From positions 263,150-327,149 of the forward strand of contig NZ_LN831197.1 of NCBI RefSeq assembly GCF_001375535.1: a stretch of DNA of 64,000 nt. Reading direction: 5' to 3'. This DNA is from Bacillus niameyensis (GTDB lineage Bacteria > Bacillota > Bacilli > Bacillales > Bacillaceae_C). Below are positions 41,898 to 57,751 of this stretch, piece after piece. Below the pieces are notes generated by a model. That model did not search any database and had not been told where the DNA came from. It saw nothing but the letters and a program-made list of their open reading frames with translations. A program made the translations under genes and the position numbers. Positions within the stretch are counted from its first letter, which is position 1; each line of letters starts with the position of its first letter.

Positions 41898-42496
41898 AAA
41901 AGATTATTATCGCTACAAAAAACAAGGGGAAAGCAGCGGAATTTAAAACCTTATTTTCTGAGTATGGAGTAGAAGTGTTGACTTTGTTAGACATTGAAAA
42001 TGCTCCAGATATCGAAGAAACGGGAAATAGTTTCGAGGAAAATGCGGCTCTTAAAGCAGAAGGAATTTCTAATTTGACCGATACAATCGTTATTGCCGAT
42101 GATTCAGGTCTGATTGTAGATGAATTAGATGGGATGCCCGGAATTTATTCTGCCAGATACGCGGGGTTAGAAAAAAATGATGAGGATAATATTAATAAGC
42201 TTCTATTCGAAATGAGAGAAGTTCCAGAAAATAAAAGAACTGCTCGTTTCTATTGTTCACTTGCTGTCGCGATTCCGGGAGAAAAAACGATTGTCGTTTC
42301 GGGTAAATGTGAAGGATTTATATTAAAAGAGAGACGAGGTCATAATGGATTTGGTTATGATCCCGTATTTTTTGTAACAGTGTCAGGTAAATCAATGGCT
42401 GAACTTTCTAATGAAGAGAAAAATAGGATTAGTCATCGTGCAGAAGCCCTGCAGAACTTAGTGCCTGTGCTAAAAGAGTTATTTAAGAGAAGGTAA
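41894..42496 (+). CDS. rdgB: XTP/dITP diphosphatase (YsnA/RdgB)
   Basis: Hydrolyses non-canonical purine triphosphates (dITP, XTP) to keep them out of DNA and RNA. The 200-residue HAM1/RdgB protein starts [17 protein letters not shown], the nucleotide-binding loop. It also carries [22 protein letters not shown] (cited in part) with the catalytic Asp, and [12 protein letters not shown]. The start overlaps the end of rph. In Bacillus subtilis ysnB follows at once; here a terminator overlaps the stop codon and ysnB is 12.5 kb away. Confidence 0.95.
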
Positions 42497-42528
42497 GATG
42501 TGTCGAGTCTTACCTTCTATTTTTTTTA
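42488..42528 (+). terminator. Intrinsic terminator overlapping the rdgB stop codon
   Basis: AGAAGGTAAGA (42488-42498) pairs with TCTTACCTTCT (42508-42518), followed by eight T. The rdgB stop TAA lies within the left arm. It marks the end of the conserved block before the sulfatase cluster. Confidence 0.92.
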
Positions 42529-42652
42529 TCACATTAAATAACTATTAGGCATTATTAAAAGTAGTGATGAAGTGTTCTAGTATTCACAGTAGCTGCTAGT
42601 TTTACAGTAACGAGAAGACTAACGACAAAATAATTCAAATTTGCGAAAAAGG

Positions 42653-42680
42653 TTGACAATAATGTAAGCGTTCATATAAA
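42653..42680 (+). promoter_or_regulatory. Sigma-A promoter with cre-like site in its spacer
   Basis: TTGACA (42653-42658) and TATAAA (42675-42680) are 16 bases apart. Within, TGTAAGCGTTCATA (42663-42676) matches 12 of 14 positions of the CcpA cre consensus TGWAARCGYTWNCW. A CcpA site here would block RNA polymerase, giving glucose repression of the first binding-protein and sulfatase genes. The leader to the ATG is about 130 bases. Confidence 0.65.
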
Positions 42681-42819
42681 TTTAAGATAGTTAGTTAAAT
42701 TAATTATCTTTTAGATTTTACTAGTTAAGAGGGGAGGAGCTATTTAAAACTCAAACACTATCGATAATTTAGGGGAATGTATGCGCTTTAATACTTAAAA
42801 AGACTAGGGGGTATACTTT

Positions 42820-44421
42820 ATGAAGAGTAAAATTTTATTAGTATTATTTTCTTTAGTTCTAATCTTTATGACAGCCTGCAGTGCAAAGAAGGAAGTAGAA
42901 GGACCAAATGATGGGGAGAAGGAGTTTTTAAACAAAACTGGTTTTCCAATTGTCAATGAGGAAATCAATCTAGAAATTTTTGCCGGACAAGCTCCAGCAA
43001 CGAATCCAGATTGGAATGATGTTATGATATTCAATGAGTATGAAAAGATGACTAATATGAATATTAAATGGAAAATGGTTCCTCATGCAGGACTTGCGGA
43101 ACAACGAAATCTTGCTCTTGGTAGCGGTAATTTACCAGACGCATTTCATAGTGCGTCCATGCCTGTATCTGATATTATGCGTTATGGAGAGCAAGGTGTA
43201 TTCATACCACTAAATGATTTAATTGATGAGTATGCACCTAACTTTAAAGCCTTGATGGAAAAATATCCTGAAATAAAAGCAGGAGTAACGATGCCAGACG
43301 GAAATATTTATGGCTTTCCACAAATGGCTGATCCAGAATTCCTTTCATATCGTATGGGGCCTAAACCATTTGTTCGAAAAGACTGGCTTGAAGTCCTTAA
43401 CATGGATATTCCCGAAACAACAGATGAGTATTATCAATATTTGAAAGCGGTTAAAGAGGATAGTCCCAGTGGTGGTAAAGTAGAGGAAATTCCATTTGGA
43501 GCTCCATATATTGACCCGTTATTTGCGTATTTGAGGGGCTCTTTTGGTTTAGCTAACAAAGGATCTGGTGGTGGATATTTGGACTTGGATCCAGAAACAG
43601 GTGATTATCGTTTTTGGCCAATTTCAGAACGATACAAAGAGCTGCTTGAATATATGCATAAATTGTATAGTGAAGGATTAATTGAACAAAATCTTTACTC
43701 AATTGAGCATACGCAATACTTAGCAAATCAAGATGAAGGAAAGTATGGTAGTATTATTTGGTATAGTCCTATGCAGATTATTAAAGATTATGGAACCCAG
43801 TATATTGGTTTGCCACAGCTTGCAGGACCACATGGGGATAAAATATGGACAACACTTTATGATGCTGTATTAAACCCTGGAGCATTTCTAATTACGAGCG
43901 AAAATAAATATCCTGAAGCTACTGTTAGATGGATTGATCATTTCTATGGCGATGAAGGATTAGAGTTATTCTTCATGGGAATAGAAGGCGAAACCTATGA
44001 GATAGATGAAAATGGTAAAGCCGTATACATGGATCATATTGTAAATAGTAAAGATGGATTGACAATAGAAAAAGAGTGGGCAAAATATTTGACATTCCCT
44101 GGTGGCGGCTTCCCATCGATGACAACACTAGATTATTTCCAAGGCGCAGAAAGTAAGCCAGATGAAATGGCAACTGCAGAGTTATTAGCACCGAATTTAG
44201 TAGAAGAACCATGGCTGTCTATAAGACATACAAATGAGGAAACTAATCAATTACAAGGTGTCGGTACGGATATCGAAAAGTATGTTGTTGAAATGAGGGA
44301 TAAATTTATTGTTGGAACTGAACCACTCTTGAATTTTGACGATTATGTTAAAACACTTGAGCGCATGGGCCTAGAAGAATATATGAATCTAAAAATTAAG
44401 GCGATTGAGAGGAAAAAATAG
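42820..44421 (+). CDS. Extracellular solute-binding lipoprotein (LplA-like), first of two in the sulfatase cluster
   Basis: A 533-residue ABC receptor lipoprotein; the signal peptide ends LIFMTACSAKKE. Type 1 binding-protein features include EYEKMTNMNIKWKMVPH, SGNLPDAFHSA and FVRKDWLEVLNMDIPETTDEY. ATG 42820 follows CTAGGGGG. It is followed by a sulfatase gene rather than by permeases, and a palindrome plus terminator lie after it. It presumably delivers its ligand to the permease pair encoded at 49.0-50.8 kb, which has its own receptor as well. Carbon repression is suggested by the promoter. The ligand is unknown. Confidence 0.9.
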   Translation: MKSKILLVLFSLVLIFMTACSAKKEVEGPNDGEKEFLNKTGFPIVNEEINLEIFAGQAPATNPDWNDVMIFNEYEKMTNMNIKWKMVPHAGLAEQRNLALGSGNLPDAFHSASMPVSDIMRYGEQGVFIPLNDLIDEYAPNFKALMEKYPEIKAGVTMPDGNIYGFPQMADPEFLSYRMGPKPFVRKDWLEVLNMDIPETTDEYYQYLKAVKEDSPSGGKVEEIPFGAPYIDPLFAYLRGSFGLANKGSGGGYLDLDPETGDYRFWPISERYKELLEYMHKLYSEGLIEQNLYSIEHTQYLANQDEGKYGSIIWYSPMQIIKDYGTQYIGLPQLAGPHGDKIWTTLYDAVLNPGAFLITSENKYPEATVRWIDHFYGDEGLELFFMGIEGETYEIDENGKAVYMDHIVNSKDGLTIEKEWAKYLTFPGGGFPSMTTLDYFQGAESKPDEMATAELLAPNLVEEPWLSIRHTNEETNQLQGVGTDIEKYVVEMRDKFIVGTEPLLNFDDYVKTLERMGLEEYMNLKIKAIERKK

Positions 44422-44433
44422 TAATTTGGTAAG

Positions 44434-44495
44434 CTTTCAACCTTTAATTAAAGATTGAAGAGGATTAAGAGTAGGCAATTTTTAATCCTCTTTAT
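44434..44495 (+). terminator. Palindrome plus terminator after the first binding-protein gene
   Basis: The near-perfect palindrome at 44434-44460 has CTTTCAA and TTGAAG arms around CTTTAATTAAAG. It is followed by AAGAGGATTAA (44458-44468) pairing with TTAATCCTCTT (44482-44492), then TATTTC. The second hairpin is probably a partial terminator that leaves the sulfatase at lower expression. Confidence 0.65.
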
Positions 44496-44542
44496 TTCTA
44501 ATTCTGGTTATCGTTGATGAAATTGAAAGGAGACCTTTTCCC

Positions 44543-46054
44543 TTGAAGAAACCAAATATTCTATTAATCACGAGTGATCAACAGCACTGGGATACGATAG
44601 GGGCTTTTAATAAGGAAATTTCAACCCCAAACCTAGATCGTCTTGTTAAAGAGGGGACAACCTTTAATCGGGCCTATTGTCCTAATCCAACATGTACTCC
44701 ATCAAGAGCTTCAATTATAACTGGAATGTACCCAAGTCAACATGGTGCTTATAGTATTGGAACGAAGTTATCAGAGGAAAAAACGACGATTGGTGAACTA
44801 CTGCAAAAAAATGATTATAAAACAGCATTAGTTGGAAAAGCACATTTTCAACCGCTTGCTTCGACTGAGGAGTATCCGTCTTTGGAAGCTTATCCTCTAT
44901 TACAGGATCTCGAATTTTGGAAACACTTTGATGAAGAATTCTATGGATTTCAAGATGTTGATTTAGCGCGCAATCATACGAACGAAGCCCATGTTGGTCA
45001 GCATTATGCGCTCTGGTTAGAAGAAAATGGCTGTGATAATTGGCGTGATTATTATTTGCCGCCAACAGGAACAATGGATCGTTCAGAAAAATACAACTGG
45101 AAAATTCCAGAAAAATATCATTATAATACTTGGATAGCAGAGCGCACAAATGCTAGGATGACAGAGTACAGTGAAAAGGATGAACCATTTTTCGTCTGGG
45201 CAAGCTTTTTTGACCCACATCCGCCATATCTCGTACCGGAACCTTGGGATACAATGTATGATCCAGAAAAACTAACACTTCCGACACTTGTTCCTGGTGA
45301 ACATGCGAAGAATCCACCACATTTTCAATTGTCACAAGAAAAAAATCCTGACTTTTCTTCATATATGGAGACGAATATAGGAAATATTGGTTTTCATTCG
45401 CACGCACATGTAACTGAAGAAGAAGCTAGGAAAAATATGGCGGTTTACTATGGCATGATCAGTATGATGGACAAGTATATCGGGAAAATCCTCGATCGTT
45501 TAGATGAACTCGGTATTGCAGATGAAACAATTGTTGTCTTTACGACAGATCACGGTCACTTTTTTGGGCAGCATGGCTTACATGATAAAGGTGGCTTTCA
45601 TTACGAGGATGTGTTGAAATTACCATTTTTAGTTCGTTATCCTAATCATGTAGCCTCAGGACAGATGTCTACTGCTATGCAATCTCTTGTTGATTTAGCT
45701 CCGACATTACTAAGTTTTTCAGGTGGAAATATTCCTTCAACAATGACCGGAGTAGATCAGAGGGAAGTGTGGTGTGGTAAAAAGGAGAGTGCGAGAGACC
45801 ATGTTATATGTGAGTACCGCACTCAGCCGACAGCTGTTCATATGAAAACATTTATTGACGAGCGCTATAAACTCACCATTTATTATAATCGTGAATTTGG
45901 CGAAATATTTGACTTGCAAGAAGATCCACAAGAACTAAATAATCTGTGGGATGATCCTTCCTGTCTAGAATTAAAAGCAAGATTACTACTAAAATATGCT
46001 TGGGCAGAATTGGGGAAAGAACCATTAGTAATGCCAAGGATTTCGGGAGCGTAA
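44543..46054 (+). CDS. Cysteine-type sulfatase, cytoplasmic
   Basis: A 503-residue formylglycine-dependent sulfatase. The maturation motif is C51-TPSR in NPTCTPSRASIITG; C51 would be oxidised to formylglycine. Metal-site residues are D12 and Q13 at the N-terminus (SDQQH) and D and H in VVFTTDHGHFFGQHGLHDK. No signal peptide is present, so it acts inside the cell on an imported sulfated sugar, unlike the exported sulfatases of many polysaccharide degraders. TTG 44543 follows GAAAGGAGA. A formylglycine-generating enzyme is encoded at 55.7 kb. Phosphonate or phosphodiester hydrolysis is a possible side activity in the family. Confidence 0.9.
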   Translation: MKKPNILLITSDQQHWDTIGAFNKEISTPNLDRLVKEGTTFNRAYCPNPTCTPSRASIITGMYPSQHGAYSIGTKLSEEKTTIGELLQKNDYKTALVGKAHFQPLASTEEYPSLEAYPLLQDLEFWKHFDEEFYGFQDVDLARNHTNEAHVGQHYALWLEENGCDNWRDYYLPPTGTMDRSEKYNWKIPEKYHYNTWIAERTNARMTEYSEKDEPFFVWASFFDPHPPYLVPEPWDTMYDPEKLTLPTLVPGEHAKNPPHFQLSQEKNPDFSSYMETNIGNIGFHSHAHVTEEEARKNMAVYYGMISMMDKYIGKILDRLDELGIADETIVVFTTDHGHFFGQHGLHDKGGFHYEDVLKLPFLVRYPNHVASGQMSTAMQSLVDLAPTLLSFSGGNIPSTMTGVDQREVWCGKKESARDHVICEYRTQPTAVHMKTFIDERYKLTIYYNREFGEIFDLQEDPQELNNLWDDPSCLELKARLLLKYAWAELGKEPLVMPRISGA

Positions 46055-46155
46055 TATCTTTATCTCGTAATGCTCTTACTGAAATAAATATCACTTCTGT
46101 GACCGTTTGAGATTAATGTTCTATCCTAATCCAGAATATAAACACTTTAAACACT

Positions 46156-46204
46156 GAGGTATTTTATTAGCTTTTATAGTTAATAAAATATCTCTTTTTT
46201 TCTA
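46156..46204 (+). terminator. Intrinsic terminator after the first sulfatase gene
   Basis: GAGGTATTTTATTA (46156-46169) pairs with TAATAAAATATCTC (46181-46194) with one G-T pair, followed by a run of T. Confidence 0.85.
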
Positions 46205-46288
46205 TCAGAGCTAAATACGATCCAATATTAAGTCCTATTTCCAATATACTAATTATTTAGTTAAGTTTTAATATTTAATCAAATAGGA

Positions 46289-46317
46289 TTGACATATCTA
46301 TTATGTTTATTTATTAT
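46289..46317 (+). promoter_or_regulatory. Sigma-A promoter of the dehydrogenase/permease operon
   Basis: TTGACA (46289-46294), 17 bases, TATTAT (46312-46317). The gene start is about 300 bases downstream, so the transcript has an unusually long leader with no recognised gene. Confidence 0.65.
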
Positions 46318-46566
46318 TGTTTTAAGTATAGAGACCGATTACTATTCATACTATTTAATAACAATGGATATAAGAAATACCGAAGCATCAGTAAATTTTT
46401 GATACGTTTGGTGTAGGGAAATATTGGGAAAGAAGCTCGAATGCCAAAAATATGTAAATCATTTAAGCAATATGAATAAACTCTTCTGCTGAATTAACTA
46501 AACATTCTGATATATCTGCGAGCCATTTATTGTTTGATCTAGATTATTCTTTTTGTTTACTATTTT

Positions 46567-46580
46567 AGTAATCGTTTACT
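46567..46580. promoter_or_regulatory. cre-like dyad in the leader
   Basis: AGTAATCGTTTACT has perfect AGTAA/TTACT arms and matches 12 of 14 positions of the CcpA cre consensus. It lies about 250 bases downstream of the promoter and 45 bases before the start codon, where bound CcpA could block elongation. Confidence 0.5.
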
Positions 46581-46624
46581 ACCTAGTGAAGAACTATCTA
46601 TTAAGTATAAAGGAGTTGGAGGAA

Positions 46625-47752
46625 TTGGTTAAAAGGCGTTTTGGAGTAGCCATTATTGGTTGTGGCATTATTTCGTTAGAACATGTTAAAGCTTATCAAG
46701 CGTTTAGTGAACAATGTGAAATAAAGGCAGTATGTGATCTTTTACCAGAAAAGGCTAGTAAACTAGCTAACTTTATTGGGGGAAATGTAAGGGTATATAC
46801 AGATTTTAAGGAAGTTATTTCCCGTGAAGATATCGATATTGTATCTATATGCACTCCACCTTTTGCTCATAAAGAGGCTGTAATTGCTGCGTTTACAGCT
46901 GGTAAACATGTACTTTGCGAAAAACCACTTGCTGCATCTTTAGCAGATTGCGATGAAATGATTGAAGTCGCTACGAAGAATAATAGAAAGTTAGCGGTTA
47001 GTTTTCAATATCGTTATCGCCAAGATTTTAACAAGATGAAACACATTTTAAATAGAGGAAGTTTGGAACGAGTTACTTTTGGCCAATTAAATGGCCTATA
47101 TTGGCGTGGAAAATCTTACTATGAAGTTGACTGGCGGGGGAAATGGAATACCGAGTGTGGCGGAGTCACTATTAATCACGAAATACATATGTTAGATATC
47201 TTTTTATGGTTAATGGGTGAAGTTGAATCTGTTTCAGCCGAAATAGAAACTGTCCTACATGACATTGAAGTGGAAGATGTTTCAATGGCAGTCTTAAGAT
47301 TCTCCAATGGGGCGATTGGACAGGTAAACGGAACTGTAAGCTCAGTGATTGGTGATGTTTCAATGAGTATATCTGGTGAAAATAAAGGGGTTAGTTTCCC
47401 GCTCAAATACCATGCTCTTATTGAAAATGATGGTGGATTCCCAATTCAGGATCAACAAGGAATAGAGGAACTGGAAAAGGTCGCGAATGAAATCGAAGTA
47501 GGAACATCCGATCATAGAGGACCGGTTGGGGATTTATTACAAGCCATTATAAGTGATGAGGATCCAATAGTGAATGGAATAGAAGCTCGTAAAGTAATTG
47601 AGGTAATCACAGCAATCTATAAATCTGCAACACAAGGGAAACGAGTCTATTTACCAATCGATAAAAATGATCCTTGGTATTCAACAACTGGGTTACAAAG
47701 GCTAGTAAAAAAGGGAAAGCAAAACAGTCTCCCCACAGAACAGTCCGGGTAA
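46625..47752 (+). CDS. Gfo/Idh/MocA-family oxidoreductase of the sulfatase cluster
   Basis: NAD(P)-dependent sugar dehydrogenase of 375 aa. The dinucleotide-binding loop reads VAIIGCGIISLEHVKAY and the Lys-containing motif is HVLCEKPLAASLADC. C-terminal domain landmarks are ECGGVTINHEIHMLDIFLWL. TTG 46625 follows AAAGGAG at 9 bases; the longer frame from 46553 is rejected. The next gene encodes an enolase-superfamily enzyme, a pairing typical of oxidative sugar-acid pathways: dehydrogenation to a lactone or acid, then dehydration. It is the first gene of the transcript starting near 46.3 kb. Confidence 0.85.
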   Translation: MVKRRFGVAIIGCGIISLEHVKAYQAFSEQCEIKAVCDLLPEKASKLANFIGGNVRVYTDFKEVISREDIDIVSICTPPFAHKEAVIAAFTAGKHVLCEKPLAASLADCDEMIEVATKNNRKLAVSFQYRYRQDFNKMKHILNRGSLERVTFGQLNGLYWRGKSYYEVDWRGKWNTECGGVTINHEIHMLDIFLWLMGEVESVSAEIETVLHDIEVEDVSMAVLRFSNGAIGQVNGTVSSVIGDVSMSISGENKGVSFPLKYHALIENDGGFPIQDQQGIEELEKVANEIEVGTSDHRGPVGDLLQAIISDEDPIVNGIEARKVIEVITAIYKSATQGKRVYLPIDKNDPWYSTTGLQRLVKKGKQNSLPTEQSG

Positions 47753-47868
47753 ATAATGAACTGTAAAAATCAACTTATTTTTTATCTCAGAGGATTTTTC
47801 TGTAAGGCCTTTAATGGTAGCAGCTTTATGTTAATGAATTTTAGAATACTAAACGAAAGGGATACTTT

Positions 47869-49008
47869 ATGAAAATTGTAAAGGTTGAGATATTCCCACT
47901 ACTCATCCCATATAAAAGTAATTTTAGTATTGCTCGTGGAAAAGTAGGGGGAGGTGACATGAAACGAACAGTTATGATGGTAAAACTAACAGATGAAGAT
48001 GGATTTGTAGGATGGGGTGAAGGATCACCAAGTTATTTATGGTCATCCGAAACAATCGAAACCGTAATTGCCACGCTGGAAAACTATTTTATTCCATCAA
48101 TCATTGATGCTGATATCTACGATATTGATGAGTTTCATTCGCGAATGGAAAAAGCTATTGGACCTGCTTTTTCTACAAGTCATCCTATAGCAAAGTGTGC
48201 ATTAGATACGGCAATTCATGATTTAAAAGCGCATAGGTTAGGTGTAAATATCTCTGAGATGTGGGGATTATGTCGAAACAAAGAGGTGACATTAAGCTGG
48301 ACAGTTTCTGCTGATAATCTTCAGCAAGCAAAATTGATTGTTGAGGAAGGTTTAAGTCAAGGCTATCAAAATTTTAATGTCAAACTGGGAGCTGATCCAA
48401 TACTCGATGTTCAACTATGTCATTACATAAAAAAAATGGTTCCTAATGGTTTTCTCTGGGGTGATGCTAATGGTGGGTACACATTTAATGAAGCAACTAA
48501 GTATATATCGTCTTTAGAAGATGCAGGTTTAGATTTATTGGAGCAACCCTTTTCTTCTAATGATTGGAGTAACTGGAAAAGGTTCAAGAATTTTGCGAGT
48601 ATTCCCATTGCAGTTGATGAAGCAATCGTTTCACCTAAAGACTTAATGGAATGGATTAAACAAGATTTAATTACTGCTTTTACTACAAAAGTAACGAGAA
48701 ATGGAGGGTTATATCCTTCGTTTCAATGTGCGATTATTGCGCAACAGGCAAATTTGCTTATTCTCTCAAGCGGACTTACAGAAACTGGTTTGGGATTAGC
48801 AACCAATCTTCATCTTGCGTGTGCATTTGGAATAGATTTACCGTGCGCTTGGAACGGACCACAATTTTTGGGTGACGATATTCTTACAAAACCATTAAAT
48901 ATAGAAGCGGGACGAATTCAGTTACCGAGTGGACCAGGTATCGGAGTAGAAGTAGATGAAGAAAAAGTAAGGTTTTTATCAAGAGATTTTTGGGATAATG
49001 GGAGGTAA
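47869..49008 (+). CDS. Enolase-superfamily sugar-acid dehydratase or racemase (MR/MLE type)
   Basis: A 379-residue mandelate racemase/muconate lactonizing enzyme-like protein. The capping domain comes first, then a barrel with metal ligands D199 (WGDANGG), E225 (LEQPF) and D250 (AVDEA). Acid/base lysines are K172 (NVKLG) and K274 (TTKVTRNGG), the MLE-subgroup arrangement, although the first Lys of KxK is Asn. Possible reactions are dehydration or epimerisation of a sugar acid, or cycloisomerisation. ATG 47869 follows GAAAGGG. It sits between a Gfo/Idh enzyme and ABC permeases, so an acid sugar is the likely substrate. Confidence 0.85.
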   Translation: MKIVKVEIFPLLIPYKSNFSIARGKVGGGDMKRTVMMVKLTDEDGFVGWGEGSPSYLWSSETIETVIATLENYFIPSIIDADIYDIDEFHSRMEKAIGPAFSTSHPIAKCALDTAIHDLKAHRLGVNISEMWGLCRNKEVTLSWTVSADNLQQAKLIVEEGLSQGYQNFNVKLGADPILDVQLCHYIKKMVPNGFLWGDANGGYTFNEATKYISSLEDAGLDLLEQPFSSNDWSNWKRFKNFASIPIAVDEAIVSPKDLMEWIKQDLITAFTTKVTRNGGLYPSFQCAIIAQQANLLILSSGLTETGLGLATNLHLACAFGIDLPCAWNGPQFLGDDILTKPLNIEAGRIQLPSGPGIGVEVDEEKVRFLSRDFWDNGR

Positions 49009-49012
49009 GTAT

Positions 49013-49972
49013 ATGAGTAGTTTTCAAAAAGTTGAAACGAATATGGAAGCGCTTCCTGTAACTAAGAGGAAAAACCCTTTTTTAAAAAGATTAAATGACA
49101 GTAAGTATCTATTGATTTTATTTGCTCCTTGTTTAATCTATTATCTGCTTTTTCACTATGCACCAATGTTTGGGATTATTATTTCTTTTAAAGATTATAA
49201 TTTGTTCAAAGGATTATTAGAAAGTGATTGGGTTGGACTAAAATATTACAAAATGTTTGTAGAAAGTCCTGACTTTTTCATATTACTGCGAAACACATTC
49301 TTATTAGGGTTATATAAATTTATCTTTGGGTTTCCAATTCCAATCATATTCGCTCTATTGTTAAATGAAGTGAAAAATATGTACTTTAAACGTTTTGTCC
49401 AAACAGTCAGTTACCTCCCGCACTTTATTTCCAACGTAATTGTCGCTAGCATGATCGTCATGTTCCTATCGCCCGATGGGATCGTGAATCGACTAATTGG
49501 CTTCTTAGGTGTTGAGCCATTGAACTGGATGATTATGCCAGAAATGTTTCGTACCATCTTCGTTTCTTCTGAAATATGGCAGCATATGGGATGGGAAACG
49601 ATCATATTCTTAGCTGCTCTAACAGGAATTGACCCCCAACTTTATGAAGCTGCAGAAATTGATGGAGCCGGTCGTTTCGCGAAACTGATTCATATTACGA
49701 TTCCGGGTATTTTACCAGCAATCTTTATTGTTGGAATTCTCAATATTGGTAAGATTTTGGAGATTGGCTTTGAAAAGGTTTTCTTACTCTATAATCCAGT
49801 AACCTATGAGACTGCAGATATTATTTCTACATATGTTTATAGGGTAGGTCTTGTACAGGGGAACTATAGTTATGCTACAGCAATTGGGATCTTTCTTGGA
49901 ATAATCAGTTTTATTTTCTTATTTGCAGCCAATTATTTTGCTAAAAAGTCTGGGCAAGAAAGCCTATGGTAA
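49013..49972 (+). CDS. Carbohydrate ABC transporter permease, LplB type
   Basis: A 319-residue inner-membrane subunit of an importer, with about six helices. Family segments are LFAPCLIYYLLFHYAPMFGI, FVQTVSYLPHFISNVI and the EAA loop YEAAEIDGAGRFAKLIHITI. The C-terminus is GQESLW. ATG 49013 is chosen because GGGAGGT, which overlaps the end of the preceding gene, lies just upstream; the ATG at 48998 is before this site. It overlaps in control with the enolase-superfamily gene and pairs with the next permease. Confidence 0.9.
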   Translation: MSSFQKVETNMEALPVTKRKNPFLKRLNDSKYLLILFAPCLIYYLLFHYAPMFGIIISFKDYNLFKGLLESDWVGLKYYKMFVESPDFFILLRNTFLLGLYKFIFGFPIPIIFALLLNEVKNMYFKRFVQTVSYLPHFISNVIVASMIVMFLSPDGIVNRLIGFLGVEPLNWMIMPEMFRTIFVSSEIWQHMGWETIIFLAALTGIDPQLYEAAEIDGAGRFAKLIHITIPGILPAIFIVGILNIGKILEIGFEKVFLLYNPVTYETADIISTYVYRVGLVQGNYSYATAIGIFLGIISFIFLFAANYFAKKSGQESLW

Positions 49973-49985
49973 GGAGGAAATGCTG

Positions 49986-50843
49986 ATGTGGAGAAGGAAG
50001 ATAACCCCTTTTACTATTGTTAATACTATTATTTTGCTAATTGTAGCCTTTGTTACAGTTTATCCATTTGTATATATGATAGCGGTTTCTTTAAGCTCAG
50101 ATATTTATGTTATGAAGGGACAGGTGAATTTCTGGCCAAAAGAATTCACTCTTAAAAACTATGAACATGTATTAAGTGATTCCCGTATTGGAAGAGGATA
50201 CCTTAACACTTTGCTCTATGTTTCTCTTGGAACATTCGTATCTTTGCTCGTAACAGCAATGGGAGCCTATGCTCTCTCAAAAAGTAGATTAATATTTCGT
50301 AAAGCTTTCATGCTATTAATAGTCTTCACGATTCTTTTCAGTGGCGGTATGATCCCGACCTTTTTAGTTGTTAAAAATTTGGGATTAGTTGACACTATTT
50401 GGGCAATGATTCTACCAACAGCAGTAAGTACATGGAATTTAATTATTATGAGAACATTTTTTTCTAGTATTCCAACAGAGTTAGAGGAAGCCGGGAAAAT
50501 GGATGGTCTTAATGATATTGGGATATTTACTCGAATTGTGTTACCCCTTTCAAAACCTGTTCTAGCTACTATTGGTTTATTTTACGCAGTGGGGATTTGG
50601 AATAACTTTATGTCGCCATTGCTCTACCTAAGGAATGATGCTCTTTACCCATTGCAGGTTGTTTTAAGGAATATGGTTCTCGTGGAACAGATGGCGGATG
50701 TTTCATCAGGTGACGCTATTATTGTAGCAGAATCATTAAAATACGCTACGATCATGGCCTCAACGATCCCGATTTTACTGCTTTATCCGTTCCTTCAAAA
50801 ATACTTTGTTAAGGGGGTGATGATTGGATCGATGAAGGGATAG
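49986..50843 (+). CDS. Carbohydrate ABC transporter permease, LplC type
   Basis: A 285-residue inner-membrane subunit with about six helices. The EAA loop reads ELEEAGKMDGLNDIGIFTRI and the ending FVKGVMIGSMKG is typical. Of the in-frame starts, ATG 49986 is 8 bases from AAGGAGG, while ATG 49980 is only 2 bases from it and the longer frame from 49923 overlaps the previous permease. It forms a heterodimer with the LplB-type subunit. The ATPase is not encoded in the cluster. Confidence 0.9.
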   Translation: MWRRKITPFTIVNTIILLIVAFVTVYPFVYMIAVSLSSDIYVMKGQVNFWPKEFTLKNYEHVLSDSRIGRGYLNTLLYVSLGTFVSLLVTAMGAYALSKSRLIFRKAFMLLIVFTILFSGGMIPTFLVVKNLGLVDTIWAMILPTAVSTWNLIIMRTFFSSIPTELEEAGKMDGLNDIGIFTRIVLPLSKPVLATIGLFYAVGIWNNFMSPLLYLRNDALYPLQVVLRNMVLVEQMADVSSGDAIIVAESLKYATIMASTIPILLLYPFLQKYFVKGVMIGSMKG

Positions 50844-50888
50844 TTGAAGCAGATAATCATTATAGAAAAATATGAAAGGGGTTATGGA

Positions 50889-52442
50889 ATGAAAAAGCTC
50901 ATTTTTAACTTATTCATGACGATGCTCGTATTAACTGTAATTGTTGGTTGCTCCAATGGAACATCATCACCAAATAATTCAACTCCTGACGATACAACAT
51001 CAAGTAATTCTAAGGGGAAAGAACAAGCTGAAACGAATGGTGACAGACCAACAATAGTATTTTATACAAATGAACATCCTAGTTGGCCTACGAACAAAGA
51101 ATGGCTCGTGTGGGATCTTATGGAAGAGGGAGGAAACATTAACCTTGACATTAAAATTGCACCAGATCCTTGGGCAGAATCATTGAACCTTACAATAGCT
51201 TCCGGAGATCTCCCTGATTTATTGCGCATGACATATCAACTTGGAAATAAATATGGGCAAGATGGTGCATTAATCAATCTTTTGGATCATATTGATCAAA
51301 TGCCCAACTTAAAAGCATGGATGGAAGAATATCCTCTTGATGCTAGAAGGGCCATTTCTCATGATGGGAAAATGTATACATCCCCTAACGTAGGAATAGG
51401 TGAAACGAATCGAATGCTCTGGCTTTATCGGAAGGATATTTTTGATAAACACGGATTGGAAGCACCGAAAAATTGGGATGAATTATATACTGTATTAACT
51501 GAACTTAAAAAGCAGTATCCTGAGTCATATCCATTTGGGTTTCGAAACGGAACAGATAAATTAGTTAACTTTGCGCCGAATTTTGAAACGAGTTGGAATT
51601 ATTACTATGACTATGATAAAGATGAATGGCGTTATGGTCCAATTGAAGATAATTATCGAGTAATGATTGAGTATATGAATAAATTTTACGAAGAGAAATT
51701 AATTCCGCCAGACTTTCTATCAACAGATACGGAACAATGGCAGCAGCTTATGTCAACGGACACGTCTTTTATAACTCAAGATTATATTGGTCGAATCGAT
51801 ATGTTCAATGCACCAAATCGTGAGACAAATCCTGATTATACTATTATTAATATGCCTCCTCCAGCAGGTTTTACGAATGGGAAACAACTAGATTACTATG
51901 CACATATAAATGATGCTGGTTATTCCGTTGCTGTTACTACTAAAAACTTGGAAGCAGTACTAGGATTTATTGATTGGACATTCTCTGAGGAAGGAAGAGA
52001 CACTTTAAGTTGGGGTGTTGAAGGGGAAACATATGAGGTAGAAAACGGCGAGAAAAAATGGATTCAGGAATATCCAAGTCCGTCCGAACTTCGTACCGAT
52101 ACAGGGTTATCCTTATTTGGTACTTATTCATGGTTTGATTATGATGCTCATATGGCTTTATTTAGTGATGAGGTAAAGAAGGCGTATGAAGATGATCCCC
52201 AATATGATGCTCCAGTAGTCCCAGTGCCTGCTTTTACGGACGAGGAGCAAGAGATTATTGCGATTAAAGGTGAAGCGATTGCAAAACATAGAGATGAAGA
52301 GATTGCTAAATTTATTATTGGCAAGCGAGATTTCAGTGAGTGGGATGCCTATGTTGAAGAGATTAAGAAGTTAGGTATTGATGAAATGCTTGAGATTCAT
52401 ACAAAAGCCTATAAGCGAATGCTGGAAGTAGAATTAAATTAG
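50889..52442 (+). CDS. Extracellular solute-binding lipoprotein, second receptor of the sulfatase cluster
   Basis: A 517-residue LplA-like lipoprotein with signal peptide ending LTVIVGCSNGTSS and a Ser/Thr-rich linker. Binding-fold markers are ASGDLPDLLRM, LWLYRKDIFDKHGLEAPKNWDEL and the YDYDKDEWRYGPI stretch. ATG 50889 follows AAAGGGG; the frame from 50844 has no ribosome binding site. It directly follows the permease pair, so it is the cognate receptor. The first receptor at 42.8 kb would be an alternative for a related ligand. A hairpin without a T-run follows. Confidence 0.9.
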   Translation: MKKLIFNLFMTMLVLTVIVGCSNGTSSPNNSTPDDTTSSNSKGKEQAETNGDRPTIVFYTNEHPSWPTNKEWLVWDLMEEGGNINLDIKIAPDPWAESLNLTIASGDLPDLLRMTYQLGNKYGQDGALINLLDHIDQMPNLKAWMEEYPLDARRAISHDGKMYTSPNVGIGETNRMLWLYRKDIFDKHGLEAPKNWDELYTVLTELKKQYPESYPFGFRNGTDKLVNFAPNFETSWNYYYDYDKDEWRYGPIEDNYRVMIEYMNKFYEEKLIPPDFLSTDTEQWQQLMSTDTSFITQDYIGRIDMFNAPNRETNPDYTIINMPPPAGFTNGKQLDYYAHINDAGYSVAVTTKNLEAVLGFIDWTFSEEGRDTLSWGVEGETYEVENGEKKWIQEYPSPSELRTDTGLSLFGTYSWFDYDAHMALFSDEVKKAYEDDPQYDAPVVPVPAFTDEEQEIIAIKGEAIAKHRDEEIAKFIIGKRDFSEWDAYVEEIKKLGIDEMLEIHTKAYKRMLEVELN

Positions 52443-52449
52443 CATTATA

Positions 52450-52480
52450 GAGGTGCTTCTAGTTTATTAAGAAGCACCTC
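52450..52480 (+). terminator. Intra-operon hairpin after the second binding-protein gene
   Basis: GAGGTGCTTCT (52450-52460) pairs perfectly with AGAAGCACCTC (52470-52480). There is no T-run, so mRNA stabilisation or partial termination is likely. Confidence 0.7.
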
Positions 52481-52512
52481 AAATATTAATATCGGGAAAT
52501 GGGGTTTCTTCT

Positions 52513-53292
52513 ATGAAGTTTGGCGTTTGTGCAGGAATTGATAAGGCCCACATTGCTTACCGAGCAGGATATGATTTTATGGAATGCCAGATAGGTCATC
52601 TTGCTCCAGAGAAAAGTGATAAAGAAGTGAAAGAAATCATGAAGCAGATGATAGAAAGTCCTATTCCGATAGATGCTTTTAATATATTTTTGCCAGCAGA
52701 ATTAAAAGTGACAGGTGCAAATGTTGATTATCATCGAATTCATCGATATATTGAAAAAGCTCTTCATAGAGTTAAACAAGTTGGAGGTAAAATTATCGTA
52801 TTCGGAAGTGGCGGTTCTAGAAGTATTCCTGATGGATACTCGAAGAAGAAGGGACAAGAGCAGATCGTTTATTTCCTTAACCTAGTTGCAGATTATGCTG
52901 ATAAACAAGGTTTAACTATTGTGATTGAGCCTTTATATAAAAAGGCATCAAATATAATTCATACAATTCCAGAAGCTGTAGAAATTTGTAGGAAGGTTAA
53001 TAGGAGTTCTATAAAAGTTTTAGCAGATATTTTTCATATGATGGAAGAAAACGATTCGTTTGAGAATATTGTAAATTTTAGCGACTGTATTCGTCATATT
53101 CATATTTCGGATAATTATTCTCCACCAGGAACTGGAAACTACCCATTTGAGTTATTTGTAAATAATCTGCAAAAAACTCGTTATGATGGCAGGGTTTCTA
53201 TTGAATGTATATGGGATGATTTTGATGAACAAGTTAATGAGGCTCTGAAATTTACAAAGAAATATTTTAAGGAATCATCACAATCTAATTAG
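52513..53292 (+). CDS. Sugar phosphate isomerase/epimerase-like TIM barrel
   Basis: A 259-residue xylose-isomerase-like TIM barrel. Metal-site residues are seen in LTIVIEPLYKK (Glu), IKVLADIFHMMEE (Asp, His), IRHIHISDNY (His) and GRVSIECIW (Glu). The N-terminus MKFGVCAGIDKAH is short and cytoplasmic. ATG 52513 follows GAAATGGGG, 70 bases after the receptor stop, past a hairpin. As the last gene before a terminator, it belongs to the operon that begins at 46.3 kb. It probably acts on the oxidised or desulfated sugar; the reaction is unknown. Confidence 0.82.
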   Translation: MKFGVCAGIDKAHIAYRAGYDFMECQIGHLAPEKSDKEVKEIMKQMIESPIPIDAFNIFLPAELKVTGANVDYHRIHRYIEKALHRVKQVGGKIIVFGSGGSRSIPDGYSKKKGQEQIVYFLNLVADYADKQGLTIVIEPLYKKASNIIHTIPEAVEICRKVNRSSIKVLADIFHMMEENDSFENIVNFSDCIRHIHISDNYSPPGTGNYPFELFVNNLQKTRYDGRVSIECIWDDFDEQVNEALKFTKKYFKESSQSN

Positions 53293-53302
53293 ATCAATAA
53301 CG

Positions 53303-53347
53303 AAAAAAACGCCAAATGCTGATTATTATCAGATGGCGTTTTTTTAT
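53303..53347 (+). terminator. Intrinsic terminator after the TIM-barrel gene
   Basis: AACGCCA (53308-53314) pairs with TGGCGTT (53334-53340), with an inner CTGAT/ATCAG stem, followed by six or more T. Confidence 0.85.
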
Positions 53348-53392
53348 TTAAATGAATGTCGCAATTTTACAGATTGATATAATAACAGTGTG

Positions 53393-53441
53393 TTTACGAA
53401 TGAAATCGTTCTGATATAATTACTTAATATAAGCGGTTAAA
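53393..53441 (+). promoter_or_regulatory. Promoter and cre-like site of the second sulfatase gene
   Basis: TTTACG (53393-53398), 16 bases, perfect TATAAT (53415-53420). TATAAGCGGTTAAA at 53428-53441 matches 11 of 14 cre consensus positions and lies just downstream of -10, similar to the ROK operon site. The leader to the TTG start is about 130 bases. Confidence 0.5.
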
Positions 53442-53556
53442 ACTTCCAATAGATTAATTACAAATGATACCGTTCTCAAATATTCTACCATCACTAAAGA
53501 AATGTCTATGCCTGTTTACAGGTGACAGACACAATAAAAAAGGATAGGTGATATAA

Positions 53557-54954
53557 TTGGGCGAAATTAAACAACCGAACATTATTTTTATTATGAGTGA
53601 TGACCATGCGGCACATGCTATTAGTGCGTACGGAAGCCGCATTAATGAAACACCAAATCTTGATAGGATTGCTAACGAGGGAATGAGATTGGATAATTGC
53701 TTCTGTACCAATTCTATTTGTGCGCCAAGTCGTGCTTCTATTTTGACTGGTAAGTATAACCATATCAACGGTGTTAAAACACTTTATCAAGATTTTGATG
53801 CCCGTCAACAGCATGTAGGTAAGATATTGCAAGTGAATGGCTATCAAACAGCCATGATTGGAAAATGGCATTTAGGTCATGGAGGAAACAGTGATCCAAC
53901 TGGCTTTGATTATTGGAATATTTTCCCTGGACAAGGTGCCTATCATGATCCGGAAATGATTGAGATGGGGGAAAAGAAGAAAATCCCGGGGTACGCAACA
54001 GATATAACAATAGATTTATGCTTGGATTGGCTTGAAAAAAGAGATGAAGAACAGCCATTCTTCCTAATGTGTCACCATAAAGCACCACATCGTCCGTGGG
54101 ATCCAGATGAAAAACATCAGCATTTATATGAAGATATTGATATTCCCGAGCCAGAAACTTTCAATGATGATTACGACACTCGTACATATGCTGCTTTTGA
54201 AGCTGAAATGAGGATTGACCGCGATTTACGGAAGCGCGATGTGAAAGGGGAACCGCCAGAAGGCCTATCTGCCTCTGAATTGAAAAGTTGGTATTATCAG
54301 AGGTATATTAAAGATTATTTAAGGTGTATAGCTTCTATCGATGATAATGTGGGGAGATTGCTAGATTACTTGGATGAAAAAGGACTCACTGACGATACAA
54401 TGATTATTTACACTTCAGATCAAGGCTTTTTCCTCGGTGACCATGGGTGGTATGATAAGCGCTTTATGTATGAGGAATCTTTAAGAATGCCATTTTTAAT
54501 TCGCTATCCTCGTTCAATTAAAGCAGGCAGTGCAACGGATGCATTTGCATTAAATGTGGATTTTGCTCAAACTTTCCTCGATTATGCGGGAATTCAGTCT
54601 CCAGAAGATATGCAAGGGACTAGCTTAAGACCAATATTTGAAGGGGCAACGCCTAATGATTGGCAAAGTTCTATGTATTATCGTTATTGGGAACATCTAG
54701 ATCCAGAACATAATGTTGCGGCTCATTATGGAATTAGAACACATAGATATAAATTAATTTGCTACTATGGTGAAGGATTTGGCTTGCCCGGTACAAGTGA
54801 TAAGAAATTAGAACCGGTATGGGAACTTTTTGACCTTGAACAAGATCCACATGAACTAAAAAATGTTTATGATCATCCAAATTATCAAGATGCAGTTAAG
54901 GAGTTAAAAGAGCAATTATATGGTTTAAAAGAAAAAGTAAAAGACTTTGATTAA
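53557..54954 (+). CDS. Second cysteine-type sulfatase, cytoplasmic
   Basis: A 465-residue sulfatase. The formylglycine motif is C55-APSR in NSICAPSRASILTG. N-terminal D15-D16 (FIMSDDH) and the later YTSDQGFFLGDHGWYDKR hold metal ligands; GKWHLG carries Lys and His of the active site. It lacks a signal peptide, like the other sulfatase. The two differ substantially in length and sequence, which suggests different sulfate positions or sugars. TTG 53557 follows AGGATAGGTG. It has its own promoter. Maturation probably depends on the enzyme encoded at 55.7 kb. Confidence 0.9.
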   Translation: MGEIKQPNIIFIMSDDHAAHAISAYGSRINETPNLDRIANEGMRLDNCFCTNSICAPSRASILTGKYNHINGVKTLYQDFDARQQHVGKILQVNGYQTAMIGKWHLGHGGNSDPTGFDYWNIFPGQGAYHDPEMIEMGEKKKIPGYATDITIDLCLDWLEKRDEEQPFFLMCHHKAPHRPWDPDEKHQHLYEDIDIPEPETFNDDYDTRTYAAFEAEMRIDRDLRKRDVKGEPPEGLSASELKSWYYQRYIKDYLRCIASIDDNVGRLLDYLDEKGLTDDTMIIYTSDQGFFLGDHGWYDKRFMYEESLRMPFLIRYPRSIKAGSATDAFALNVDFAQTFLDYAGIQSPEDMQGTSLRPIFEGATPNDWQSSMYYRYWEHLDPEHNVAAHYGIRTHRYKLICYYGEGFGLPGTSDKKLEPVWELFDLEQDPHELKNVYDHPNYQDAVKELKEQLYGLKEKVKDFD

Positions 54955-55077
54955 GTAGATCAATCTTAATGTCATTAAAAAAGATCGTTGCACTTAAGCA
55001 ATAGATTTTCTTTTATCCCTTCAAATTTGTTAAAATAAAAAAAGTTCTCCAAATTATTAGTATGGGGGTGCAACGAT

Positions 55078-55584
55078 TTGAAATTACTTATTGTCAGTGA
55101 TAGCCATGGAGATAGAGTGATATTAAAAGAACTACGAGAAAAATACCAATACGATGTAGATTTGATGATTCATTGTGGCGATTCTGAACTTCGCGCTGTG
55201 GATCCGGCTCTAAAGGGATATTCCATTGTTAAAGGTAATTGTGATTATGATGAAAAATTCTCAAATGAACTTTTGTTAGGTGTGAAAGGGAATAAAATAT
55301 ATGTTACGCATGGCCATTTATTCCAAATAAAATCATCTCTATTAAAGATGTCATATCGTGCTAAAGAGCTTGAGGCTGACTTTGTATTTTTTGGTCACTC
55401 CCATTTGTTAAAGGCCGAAATGATAGAAGGCACTTTGTTTCTAAACCCAGGAAGTATTTTACTTCCGAGAGGCGGGAATGAAAAAACTTATGCTATTGTC
55501 GAAAAAGAAAAACTTGTCTGCACCGTTCGTTTTTATAATGAAAAACATGAAGAACTTACGGAGTTAGGAGTTGTATATAGCTAG
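55078..55584 (+). CDS. ysnB: YsnB-like metallophosphoesterase (YfcE/MJ0936 family)
   Basis: A 168-residue phosphodiesterase with the calcineurin-like metal motifs: DSHGD (D8, H10), MIHCGDSE, GNCDYD, THGHLF and FGHSHL. The family hydrolyses phosphodiesters in vitro; the cellular role of YsnB is unclear. TTG 55078 follows GGGGGTG. In other bacilli the gene directly follows rdgB (ysnA); here the sulfatase cluster separates them. It appears intact. A hairpin follows, then the formylglycine-generating enzyme. Confidence 0.93.
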   Translation: MKLLIVSDSHGDRVILKELREKYQYDVDLMIHCGDSELRAVDPALKGYSIVKGNCDYDEKFSNELLLGVKGNKIYVTHGHLFQIKSSLLKMSYRAKELEADFVFFGHSHLLKAEMIEGTLFLNPGSILLPRGGNEKTYAIVEKEKLVCTVRFYNEKHEELTELGVVYS

Positions 55585-55646
55585 TAGAGGGAAAGAGATA
55601 TAATTGGAAAGCTTATTATCTCTTTACTATACGTTTAAATCAACAA

Positions 55647-55680
55647 CAAGAATCTCGATATAAATGGGATTCTTGATTAT
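55647..55680 (+). terminator. Intrinsic terminator after ysnB
   Basis: CAAGAATC (55647-55654) pairs with GATTCTTG (55668-55675), followed by ATTATTTAT. Confidence 0.65.
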
Positions 55681-55703
55681 TTATAATAATGGGGTTTTAT
55701 ATA

Positions 55704-56660
55704 ATGGAAGAAACACAGAGGAAATCATGTTGTACAACTAGTCGTCCTAACGGTAATAAATCTGCTTTAGCAAAGGAACAACTAATATTTGCCAAAGATG
55801 ATTTGAAAACTGGGATGATTGAAATCCCCGGTGGTGAATTTATTATGGGAACTTCTAGTAAAGAAGGGTTTCCCGCAGACGGAGAAGGGCCTGCACGAAA
55901 AATTAAAGTTGACTCATTTTTAATGGATTCGACAACTGTTACGAATGCCCAATTTTCTGAGTTTGTTAAGGAGACAGGGTATAAAACAGAAGCTGAACAA
56001 TTTGGCTGGTCTTTTGTTTTTTACAGTTTATTGTCTCCAAACATGATTAGAAAGGTTAGACAAGTTGTCCGTGAAACTCCGTGGTGGTACACAGTTGAGG
56101 GAGCGTATTGGTATCAACCAGAGGGGCCGGACTCTAATATAGAAAGTCGAATGGATCACCCTGTTATTCATGTTTCCTGGAATGATGCTAATGCCTATTG
56201 CCAATGGGCAGGAAAAAGATTACCAACGGAAGCAGAGTGGGAATACGCCGCCCGAGGTGGTTTGGAGCAATTGAGGTATCCATGGGGCGATGAGCTAATG
56301 ATGAACGATCAGCATAATTGTAATATTTGGCAAGGAGTTTTCCCGAAACATAATACTAAGGAAGATGGATATGAAGGGACAGCACCTGCTAAGTCCTTTC
56401 CGCCGAATGGATATGGGTTATATAATGTATCCGGAAATGTGTGGGAGTGGTGCTCCGACTGGTTTACAAGAAGTATTCACAATCGAGGGGGCCGGGAAAA
56501 TCCGAAAGGTCCTGACTCTGGAAAAGCAAAGGTGATGCGAGGCGGATCCTATCTTTGTCATGAGTCTTATTGCAATCGCTATCGGGTAGCAGCACGGAGT
56601 TCGAATACTCTAGATAGTTCTTCAGGTAATATCGGATTTCGATGTGTAGCAGATATTTAG
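55704..56660 (+). CDS. Formylglycine-generating enzyme (SUMF1/FGE family)
   Basis: Converts the cysteine of CxPxR motifs in sulfatases to formylglycine, using oxygen and copper. The 318-residue protein shows the family start IPGGEFIMGTSS, then TTVTNAQFSEFV, HVSWNDANAYCQWAGKRLPT, GNVWEWCSDW and the active-site pair C285 and C290 in GGSYLCHESYCNRYR, with the same five-residue spacing as human FGE C336/C341. FRCVAD ends it. It is therefore a true FGE rather than an EgtB/PvdO relative. ATG 55704 is chosen over ATG 55689 because GGGG lies 9 bases upstream. The N-terminus has CCTTSR, which resembles a sulfatase motif. Its substrates are likely the two sulfatases nearby. Confidence 0.92.
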   Translation: MEETQRKSCCTTSRPNGNKSALAKEQLIFAKDDLKTGMIEIPGGEFIMGTSSKEGFPADGEGPARKIKVDSFLMDSTTVTNAQFSEFVKETGYKTEAEQFGWSFVFYSLLSPNMIRKVRQVVRETPWWYTVEGAYWYQPEGPDSNIESRMDHPVIHVSWNDANAYCQWAGKRLPTEAEWEYAARGGLEQLRYPWGDELMMNDQHNCNIWQGVFPKHNTKEDGYEGTAPAKSFPPNGYGLYNVSGNVWEWCSDWFTRSIHNRGGRENPKGPDSGKAKVMRGGSYLCHESYCNRYRVAARSSNTLDSSSGNIGFRCVADI

Positions 56661-56666
56661 ATCAAA

Positions 56667-56700
56667 AAAGTCACCCTATGATCAAAGGGTGACTTTGCTA
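56667..56700 (+). terminator. Intrinsic terminator after the FGE gene
   Basis: AAAGTCACCCT (56667-56677) pairs perfectly with AGGGTGACTTT (56686-56696). Confidence 0.85.
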
Positions 56701-56805
56701 TTTGCAATTAGAGAAGAAGTTCTTTGGATTAATCCTAATGGTGCACAACATGGATTCGTTCATGATTTATTATTCAGTTAATGCACAGTCGATTATAAAG
56801 TTAAT

Positions 56806-56830
56806 AAGAGCGCCAAGCGGAAGCGCTCTT
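56806..56830. repeat. GC-rich hairpin AAGAGCGC/GCGCTCTT
   Basis: AAGAGCGC (56806-56813) and GCGCTCTT (56823-56830) form a perfect stem with a nine-base loop. Its core resembles the AAGCGnAAGCGC word of the repeat elements near 62.0 kb. It may be a fragment of such an element. The surrounding 200 bases show no recognised gene. Confidence 0.4.
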
Positions 56831-56897
56831 AGCAAGAGTGATGAAAGTATCGACATTTCGGATACAGCTTATATAAGTGGCGGAGGATAAAAAATAA

Positions 56898-57029
56898 TTA
56901 AAGAATCGTAGCCCCTATGATAATTAGCAGAATGAAAAGAACAACAATTAAAGCGAAGCCACTACCAAAGCCACGACCACCATAGCTTTCGCCAGCATAA
57001 CCTCCGCCGTATCCACCGAAACAACTCAC
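56898..57029 (-). CDS. YjcZ-family sporulation micropeptide
   Basis: A 43-residue protein. It has a glycine- and tyrosine-rich N-terminal half starting [13 protein letters not shown], and a single C-terminal membrane helix ([19 protein letters not shown]). This layout is typical of YjcZ-family sporulation proteins in Bacillaceae. GTG 57029 is preceded on the minus strand by AAAGGTGGTGA with good spacing, and the stop is TAA at 56898-56900. The role of the family is not well known; members are found in spores. A sporulation promoter is expected upstream but was not identified. Confidence 0.85.
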
Positions 57030-57216: not shown

Positions 57217-57244
57217 TGTACTTAATGAGAGGTTTGTGGTCACA

Positions 57245-57713: not shown

Positions 57714-57751
57714 TGCTGATAAGCTTTATTACGATATATTGAAATTTGTAT

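Follow-up and report, generated by a model that had tools for sequence, protein, structure and literature searches.

A 64,000-nucleotide stretch of the Bacillus niameyensis genome (RefSeq assembly GCF_001375535.1, contig NZ_LN831197.1, positions 263,150 to 327,149, hereafter the window; the genome comprises 4.68 Mb in six contigs) carries a row of nine genes on the + strand between rdgB (41894-42496) and ysnB (55078-55584). In this order, they encode a solute-binding protein (SBP1), a sulfatase (SulfA), a Gfo/Idh dehydrogenase, an enolase-superfamily protein (MLE), two ATP-binding cassette (ABC) permeases (PermA and PermB), a second solute-binding protein (SBP2), an AP_endonuc_2 barrel (TIM) and a second sulfatase (SulfB). 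A formylglycine-generating enzyme (FGE) is encoded beyond ysnB, a yfcE-like gene that thus sits between SulfB and FGE; the names rdgB, ysnB and rph were given by eye. The genes are real, their families ordinary and their combination uncommon. We propose, with a probability of about 0.4, that the cluster serves the import, intracellular desulfation and subsequent oxidation and isomerisation of a uronate-bearing sugar. The gene positions and the family calls made for the dehydrogenase, the MR/MLE protein, both permeases, both solute-binding proteins and the barrel in a first-pass annotation of this DNA were confirmed by Pfam. The locus contains the following features.

42820..44421, + strand: SBP1, solute-binding protein (PF13416) with a lipoprotein-type leader recognized by eye
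44456-44494: terminator-like hairpin between SBP1 and SulfA (hairpin scan)
44543..46054, + strand: SulfA, S1 sulfatase (PF00884, 170.6 bits), CTPSR motif with Cys51, no signal peptide
46156..46194, + strand: terminator-like hairpin after SulfA (hairpin scan)
46289..46317, + strand: promoter-like site before the Gfo/Idh gene (11 of 12 positions matching)
46619..47752, + strand: Gfo/Idh/MocA dehydrogenase (PF01408, PF22725); the reading frame opens at 46553 and the start near 46619 is a guess
47869..49008, + strand: MLE-subgroup enolase-superfamily protein (PF13378, PF02746; residues, fold matches)
48998..49972, + strand: PermA, ABC permease (PF00528, BPD_transp_1)
49923..50843, + strand: PermB, ABC permease (PF00528, BPD_transp_1)
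50844..52442, + strand: SBP2, solute-binding protein (PF01547)
52513..53292, + strand: TIM barrel of the ketose 3-epimerase / 3-keto-glucoside epimerase type (PF01261, AP_endonuc_2; residues, fold matches)
53557..54954, + strand: SulfB, S1 sulfatase of S1_11 type (structure-sequence matches), CAPSR motif with Cys55, no signal peptide
55078..55584, + strand: ysnB, resident and outside the pathway (orthologs of 63-68% identity between rdgB and FGE in five congeners)
55689..56660, + strand: FGE, probably resident and common to the sulfatases (PF03781, sole match in the genome)

The MLE and PermA genes overlap, as do PermA and PermB, PermB and SBP2 abut, and gaps of 116 and 70 bases separate Gfo/Idh from MLE and SBP2 from TIM, respectively. 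Because of these overlaps and short gaps, the six genes from Gfo/Idh to TIM were taken as one operon, here called the core operon. A second hairpin, absent from the hairpin-scan output, was seen by eye after TIM. Together, the hairpins after SulfA and after TIM suggest three transcription units, namely SBP1-SulfA, the core operon and SulfB, and the hairpin between SBP1 and SulfA could raise this number to four. Promoter-like sites are not enriched in the region (56, versus 58.0 in shuffles). No strict cre match was found in the region, in which one loose match lies at 49043, inside PermA; by eye only, a cre-like TGTAAGCGTTCA stretch was seen in the spacer of the promoter-like site before SBP1. 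An Rfam scan of positions 40000-60000 at gathering scores returned one tRNA and nothing else.

Both sulfatases carry the motif C-x-[PA]-[ST]-R with its convertible Cys (CTPSR and Cys51 in SulfA, CAPSR and Cys55 in SulfB). Their first core strands start after 3 and 6 residues, respectively, which leaves no room for a signal peptide; the two signal-less sulfatases described previously were thus found as stated. Import followed by cytoplasmic desulfation, proposed in the same annotation, is supported by the sequence, but does not single out this cluster. A hydrophobic leader is present in none of the 17 sulfatase open reading frames (ORFs) of the genome with a readable start, the longest uncharged run before the core measuring 8 residues in a simple uncharged-run test, which is not SignalP. 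These 17 are the 17 rows matching SulfA or SulfB in the stretches of the genome that were read, minus a duplicate (L001/L015) and one ORF lacking its front, plus both window genes, and four of them are near-identical copies. PF00884 itself has 26 matches in the genome, 24 of them above the cut-off; four matches of 620-672 residues, lipoteichoic acid synthase-like in length, were left out of the leader count, and one of these (L021) has a hydrophobic front by eye. Among the sulfatases read, a cytoplasmic location would therefore appear to be the general rule in this genome rather than a hallmark of the cluster.

SulfB is, as judged from its alignments, of S1_11 type. Its eight best solved chains score 377-460 bits and include the N-acetylglucosamine-6-sulfatase 5g2v (460 bits) and the exo-L-galactose-6-sulfatase 7lha (399 bits), the next chain scoring 165 bits. 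SulfB can be aligned to 5g2v and 7lha almost from end to end, a likeness to the S1_11 sulfatases BT4656, BT3177, the L-galactose enzyme and PbSulf2. Since it has stretches in common with the GlcNAc enzymes as well as with the L-galactose enzymes, no choice between these specificities was made. Of the solved chains, 5g2v and 7lj2 are named as S1_11 members (PMC13063451), and the substrates described for this subfamily are 6S-GlcNAc, 6S-GlcNS and L-galactose (PMC10154612) as well as mannose-6-sulfate (PMC13063451). The heparan enzymes of B. theta and P. heparinus and PbSulf2 are described as periplasmic (PMC10154612, PMC13063451), whereas SulfB is predicted to be cytoplasmic.

Six of the 397 other genomes in the class sample hold relatives of SulfA with 68-72% identity, and five of the six have an importer of PermA/PermB type within the 20 kb read around the relative; one importer-bearing locus also holds a fucosidase-family gene and a UxaC gene. 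Four other solute-binding proteins encoded in the genome (L014, L019, L020, L038) have 44-48% identity to SBP1, and those in L019 and L020 adjoin sulfatases. Cassettes of a solute-binding protein and a signal-less sulfatase lacking adjacent permeases are accordingly seen at three places, in the window (42820-46054), in L019 (7675-10853) and in L020 (9357-12454), the binding proteins of the latter two being 47% and 44% identical to SBP1.

FGE matches PF03781 with 296 bits over residues 41-320 and the two best solved FGEs with 412 and 407 bits. Its Cys pair, which we take to be the active-site pair, lies at 290/295 from the ORF start, that is 285/290 from the ATG at 55704, in agreement with the first-pass description of a true FGE with a C285/C290 pair. 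A PF03781 search of the genome gave this single match, so one FGE would serve the sulfatases unless another maturase exists. The gene was previously counted with the cluster, an assignment that its distribution does not bear out. FGE is present in 14 of the 16 genomes of the genus and in none of the 18 other genomes of the family. Outside the source genome, 14 loci were found in 13 genomes; in five of them (L091, L097, L098, L099, L100), a row of rph, rdgB and ysnB is followed by FGE directly beyond ysnB, with no sulfatase between rdgB and ysnB. FGE is opposed to ysnB in these five congener loci and has the same direction as ysnB in the window. In the remaining nine, rph, rdgB and ysnB are not visible within the approximately 1.5 kb read per side. 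Because five congeners show the arrangement devoid of a sulfatase cluster, FGE is probably not a cluster gene but older at the site, and the cluster probably arrived later, between rdgB and ysnB, in the vicinity of a resident FGE. In one congener (G015), FGE is present twice, once next to an AgaS-like gene and once next to a sulfatase. A mobile-element origin was also considered on the basis of composition and rejected, the cluster bins (33.7-37.7% GC) overlapping the flanks (35.1-38.2%, one bin 41.7%).

The Gfo/Idh protein likely oxidizes a sugar. Its nearest solved structures are 3q2k and 3q2i (139 and 136 bits), which we take to be WlbA, the 3-dehydrogenase of UDP-GlcNAc uronate, followed by DgpA (125 bits); 8tdi, a glucuronide-3-dehydrogenase by name, scores 88 bits. 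The EKP and H-x-x-D motifs are kept in all eight aligned sequences, with N-H where 3q2k has N-Q.

Members of the MLE subgroup are marked by the metal ligands and by Lys residues on strands 2 and 6, while acid-sugar dehydratases of the MR subgroup have a His on strand 7 with an Asp on strand 6. In MLE, Lys172, Asp199, Glu225, Asp250 and Lys274 are invariant in seven aligned sequences, strand 7 holds no His, and SSGL and Lys occupy the acid-sugar-dehydratase positions; the residues are thus those of the MLE subgroup and not those of the MR-subgroup dehydratases. The model (pLDDT, predicted local distance difference test, 90.6) is nearest in fold to muconate cycloisomerases, racemases and dipeptide epimerases. 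MLE therefore shares fold, metal ligands and Lys/Lys pair with the muconate cycloisomerase / N-acylamino acid racemase / dipeptide epimerase subgroup, and differs from it by its place in a sugar operon and by an Asn for the first Lys of KxK: Lys172 stands in N-x-K, the Asn being shared with both orthologs described below.

Orthologs of MLE are rare. An order scan at E 1e-90 matched 1 of 397 genomes, the source genome itself, and a class scan at 1e-75 matched 6 of 398 including it, the others at 35-38% identity; within its own family (34 genomes), one congener matched at 34%. Six exact peptide patterns run against the GTDB collection (84,980 genomes), a scan that misses distant relatives, retrieved two orthologs, from Paenibacillus koleovorans (54%) and P. 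sabuli (52%). Among 104 genomes of the family to which the former belongs, its own was the sole match at 1e-95, and no relative was found at 1e-40 in 72,556 plasmid records. Both Paenibacillus loci hold importer genes and a Gfo/Idh ortholog, which is adjacent to MLE in P. sabuli (49%) and separated from it by another Gfo/Idh gene in P. koleovorans (52%). MLE and Gfo/Idh hence occur together in all three genomes with an orthologous MLE, adjacent in the window and in P. sabuli and one gene apart in P. koleovorans. The enzyme families are known, but their pairing is, judging by these scans, rare.

Epimerases of the DTE/YcjR type bind their metal through a Glu/Asp/His/Glu site in an AP_endonuc_2 barrel. 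This site is present in TIM as Glu139, Asp172, His197 and Glu231, all invariant in four aligned sequences. The TIM model (pLDDT 87.9) is nearest in fold to D-psicose/D-allulose 3-epimerases and TM0416; most of the 50 fold matches listed are named epimerases, with E. coli YcjR, a 3-keto-D-glucoside 4-epimerase, at rank 22 among them. A 45% paralog of TIM lies in the source genome (L130, 13655-14425); the 20 kb read around it contain no match to Gfo/Idh.

Three lines, none of them strong alone, point to a uronate-bearing substrate: the chemistry of MLE and the loci of the Gfo/Idh and of the TIM relatives. Enzymes of the enolase superfamily require a substrate proton adjacent to a carboxylate. 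Around Gfo/Idh relatives of 38-42% identity, a GH67 alpha-glucuronidase gene lies 1 to 8 kb away in three of seven loci (L113, L115, L116), one of which also holds UxaC; one of the seven, L114, was read only up to the gene end. Four loci of TIM relatives were read, six weaker relatives standing outside this count. One (28%) carries altronate-dehydratase-like, mannitol-dehydrogenase-type and PfkB genes, another (30%) has a neighbouring Gfo/Idh gene, and the other two, including that of the 45% paralog, show neither gene set. The P. koleovorans locus (L040) additionally encodes a GDSL esterase and a polysaccharide lyase of family PL8 whose closest relatives are xanthan lyases (650 bits). Xanthan lyases cut next to glucuronate, and this PL8 gene near the pair was counted for the uronate reading. 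Separately, a second Gfo/Idh gene with a GMNYAPxGKP start, Pfam-checked in one case, recurs in five of the seven Gfo/Idh-relative loci (L112, L113, L115, L116, L118), three of them with GH67.

In the order of steps that we infer, SBP1 and SBP2 with PermA and PermB, energized by an ATPase encoded elsewhere, would import a small oligosaccharide or glycoside that is sulfated and acidic and most likely contains a uronate. In the cytoplasm, its sulfates would be stripped by SulfA and SulfB, both of which the resident FGE would have matured; the substrates described for S1_11, the type of SulfB, are 6-O-sulfated hexoses. Gfo/Idh might then use NAD(P) to oxidize a hydroxyl of the ring, probably the one at C3, MLE might use its divalent metal and Lys/Lys pair to abstract the proton next to the carboxylate (in an epimerisation, or an elimination or cycloisomerisation), and TIM, as a metal-dependent barrel, might epimerise or isomerise the keto sugar, like YcjR beside its dehydrogenases in E. 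coli. That this amounts to a cytoplasmic breakdown of sulfated glycuronides lacking a glycoside hydrolase or lyase of its own, with a muconate-cycloisomerase-type enzyme recruited to sugar acids beside a C3 dehydrogenase, is rather unlikely; if true, this role of MLE would be a new reaction class for its subgroup.

Several findings weigh against the proposed pathway. The uronate link draws on relatives of 38-42% (Gfo/Idh) and 28-30% (TIM) identity, and four of the seven and two of the four loci, respectively, lack it. The Pfam scan found no hexuronate genes in the cluster, no sugar-enzyme names occur among the 50 fold matches listed for MLE, and in sequence comparison MLE reaches 75 bits with the sugar-acid enzyme 5olc versus 144 with the best match. 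Hairpins lie between the core operon and each of the two sulfatase genes, and each sulfatase has a close paralog elsewhere in the genome. The first-pass annotation had further proposed to look in other bacilli for loci that combine the enolase-superfamily protein with the two sulfatases; both orthologous loci have the dehydrogenase and neither has a sulfatase in the 14.6 kb (L040, on a contig of 17.3 kb) and 21.1 kb read, the two Paenibacillus genomes each holding at least 40 sulfatase matches elsewhere. The absence of sulfatases there, like the distinct transcription units, also fits two functions side by side, a possible explanation that comes close behind the pathway proposed here: SBP1-SulfA and SulfB would stand alone and serve several glycan pathways, the core operon would handle an unsulfated sugar, and both would have landed by the resident FGE. 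It also accords with the 69% paralog of SulfA in the genome, whose locus holds GH123, SIS and class II aldolase genes, with the other contexts of the 68-72% relatives, with the 82% paralog of SulfB, and with the permease-free cassettes at two more places. However, the units share the same strand and a single insertion between rdgB and ysnB, and SBP1, which has no adjacent permeases of its own, might use PermA/PermB.

The remaining alternatives concern the chemistry and are all unlikely. Oxidation to a sugar acid followed by dehydration to a 2-keto-3-deoxy acid, as first envisaged, has a parallel in the use of carrageenan, for which a locus with sulfatases supplies a dehydrogenase and, after it, an enolase-superfamily cycloisomerase (PMC5698469), and MLE has profile matches to sugar-acid dehydratases of 60-73 bits, far under their cut-offs. 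Oxidation of a sugar by Gfo/Idh is likely; dehydration by MLE is unsupported, because a Lys/Lys pair (Lys172/Lys274) replaces His/Asp. MLE is also unlike the genome's own dehydratase-type member P0001, encoded in a fucosidase-rich region beside a sulfatase and showing, by eye, KxK, Asp and His, and among NCBIfam profiles it scores highest with that of the muconate cycloisomerase family (195 bits, under the cut-off of 335). A beta-elimination of the glycosidic bond, in which Gfo/Idh would make a 3-keto-glycoside and TIM would eliminate the aglycone in place of a glycoside hydrolase, is just as improbable. Such a route is described for O- and C-glycosides (PMC10628242), DgpA is among the nearest solved relatives of Gfo/Idh, and the cluster joins Gfo/Idh and a TIM barrel with, as previously noted, no match to glycoside hydrolase or sugar kinase families among the 10 proteins scanned against Pfam. 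These eliminases have a catalytic His two residues past the strand-5 metal ligand, as with AtOGE His134 after His132 (PMC10628242); TIM has at this place Leu141, invariant in four aligned sequences, and the epimerase names among its fold matches likewise speak against elimination. Equally doubtful is that MLE racemises or epimerises an N-acylamino acid or a dipeptide attached to the glycan. Such enzymes are among its fold and sequence neighbours, and M55 D-aminopeptidase-like genes were seen by eye in two of seven loci of its 34-38% relatives, but it is paired with a sugar-type Gfo/Idh in three of three genomes and reads AWNGP, lacking the strand-8 Asp motif expected of dipeptide epimerases. 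Products of glycosaminoglycan lyases were considered as substrates and are less likely: PF07470 (GH88/GH105) reached 24.1 and 20.5 bits at best against a cut-off of 26.6 in the source genome, where polysaccharide lyases were not searched for.

Set against characterized systems, the cluster is plausibly a variant of known oxidative sugar pathways. The E. coli ycj locus comprises the importer YcjNOPV, the dehydrogenases YcjS and YcjQ and the epimerase YcjR (PMC11543891), and like the cluster it unites a binding protein, two permeases, a sugar dehydrogenase and an epimerase/isomerase, YcjR being also among the TIM fold matches. Unlike the cluster, the 12 ycj genes listed in that source include no sulfatase or enolase-superfamily protein, and they include phosphorylases and a beta-phosphoglucomutase, of which the cluster has none (PMC11543891). 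The carrageenan D-AnG pathway resembles the cluster in having a dehydrogenase (DauA) followed by an enolase-superfamily enzyme (DauB) within a sulfatase-bearing locus; DauB and AtGCI, however, keep a Lys166/His296 pair where MLE has Lys/Lys, and DauA was first annotated as a lactaldehyde dehydrogenase whereas the cluster enzyme is Gfo/Idh (PMC5698469). A search by titles and abstract openings, which is no proof of novelty since much subscription literature lay outside its reach, gave no paper with this gene set. The sulfated-glycan systems in the papers cited here belong to Bacteroidota with periplasmic or surface sulfatases, and import first with internal desulfation would depart from that design. 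The MLE and Gfo/Idh pair is a small, testable unit; should it act on a sugar acid, the MLE subgroup, in which the solved enzymes that bear names work on aromatics, amino acids and dipeptides, would gain a sugar reaction.

Some further observations were made at other loci. Contig 6 of the source genome carries, at 1.662-1.782 Mb (L009-L014), a fucosidase- and sulfatase-rich region with GH29, GH95, FucU and a dehydratase-type enolase member, in which a near-identical block of binding-protein, permease and sulfatase genes occurs four times, by local amplification or as an assembly effect. In L017, a three-gene block occurs twice within about 5 kb (10849-12538 and 14332-16021). Beside the Gfo/Idh-MLE pair of P. 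sabuli, CRISPR type III-like ORFs were seen by eye (L041, 12473-21104).

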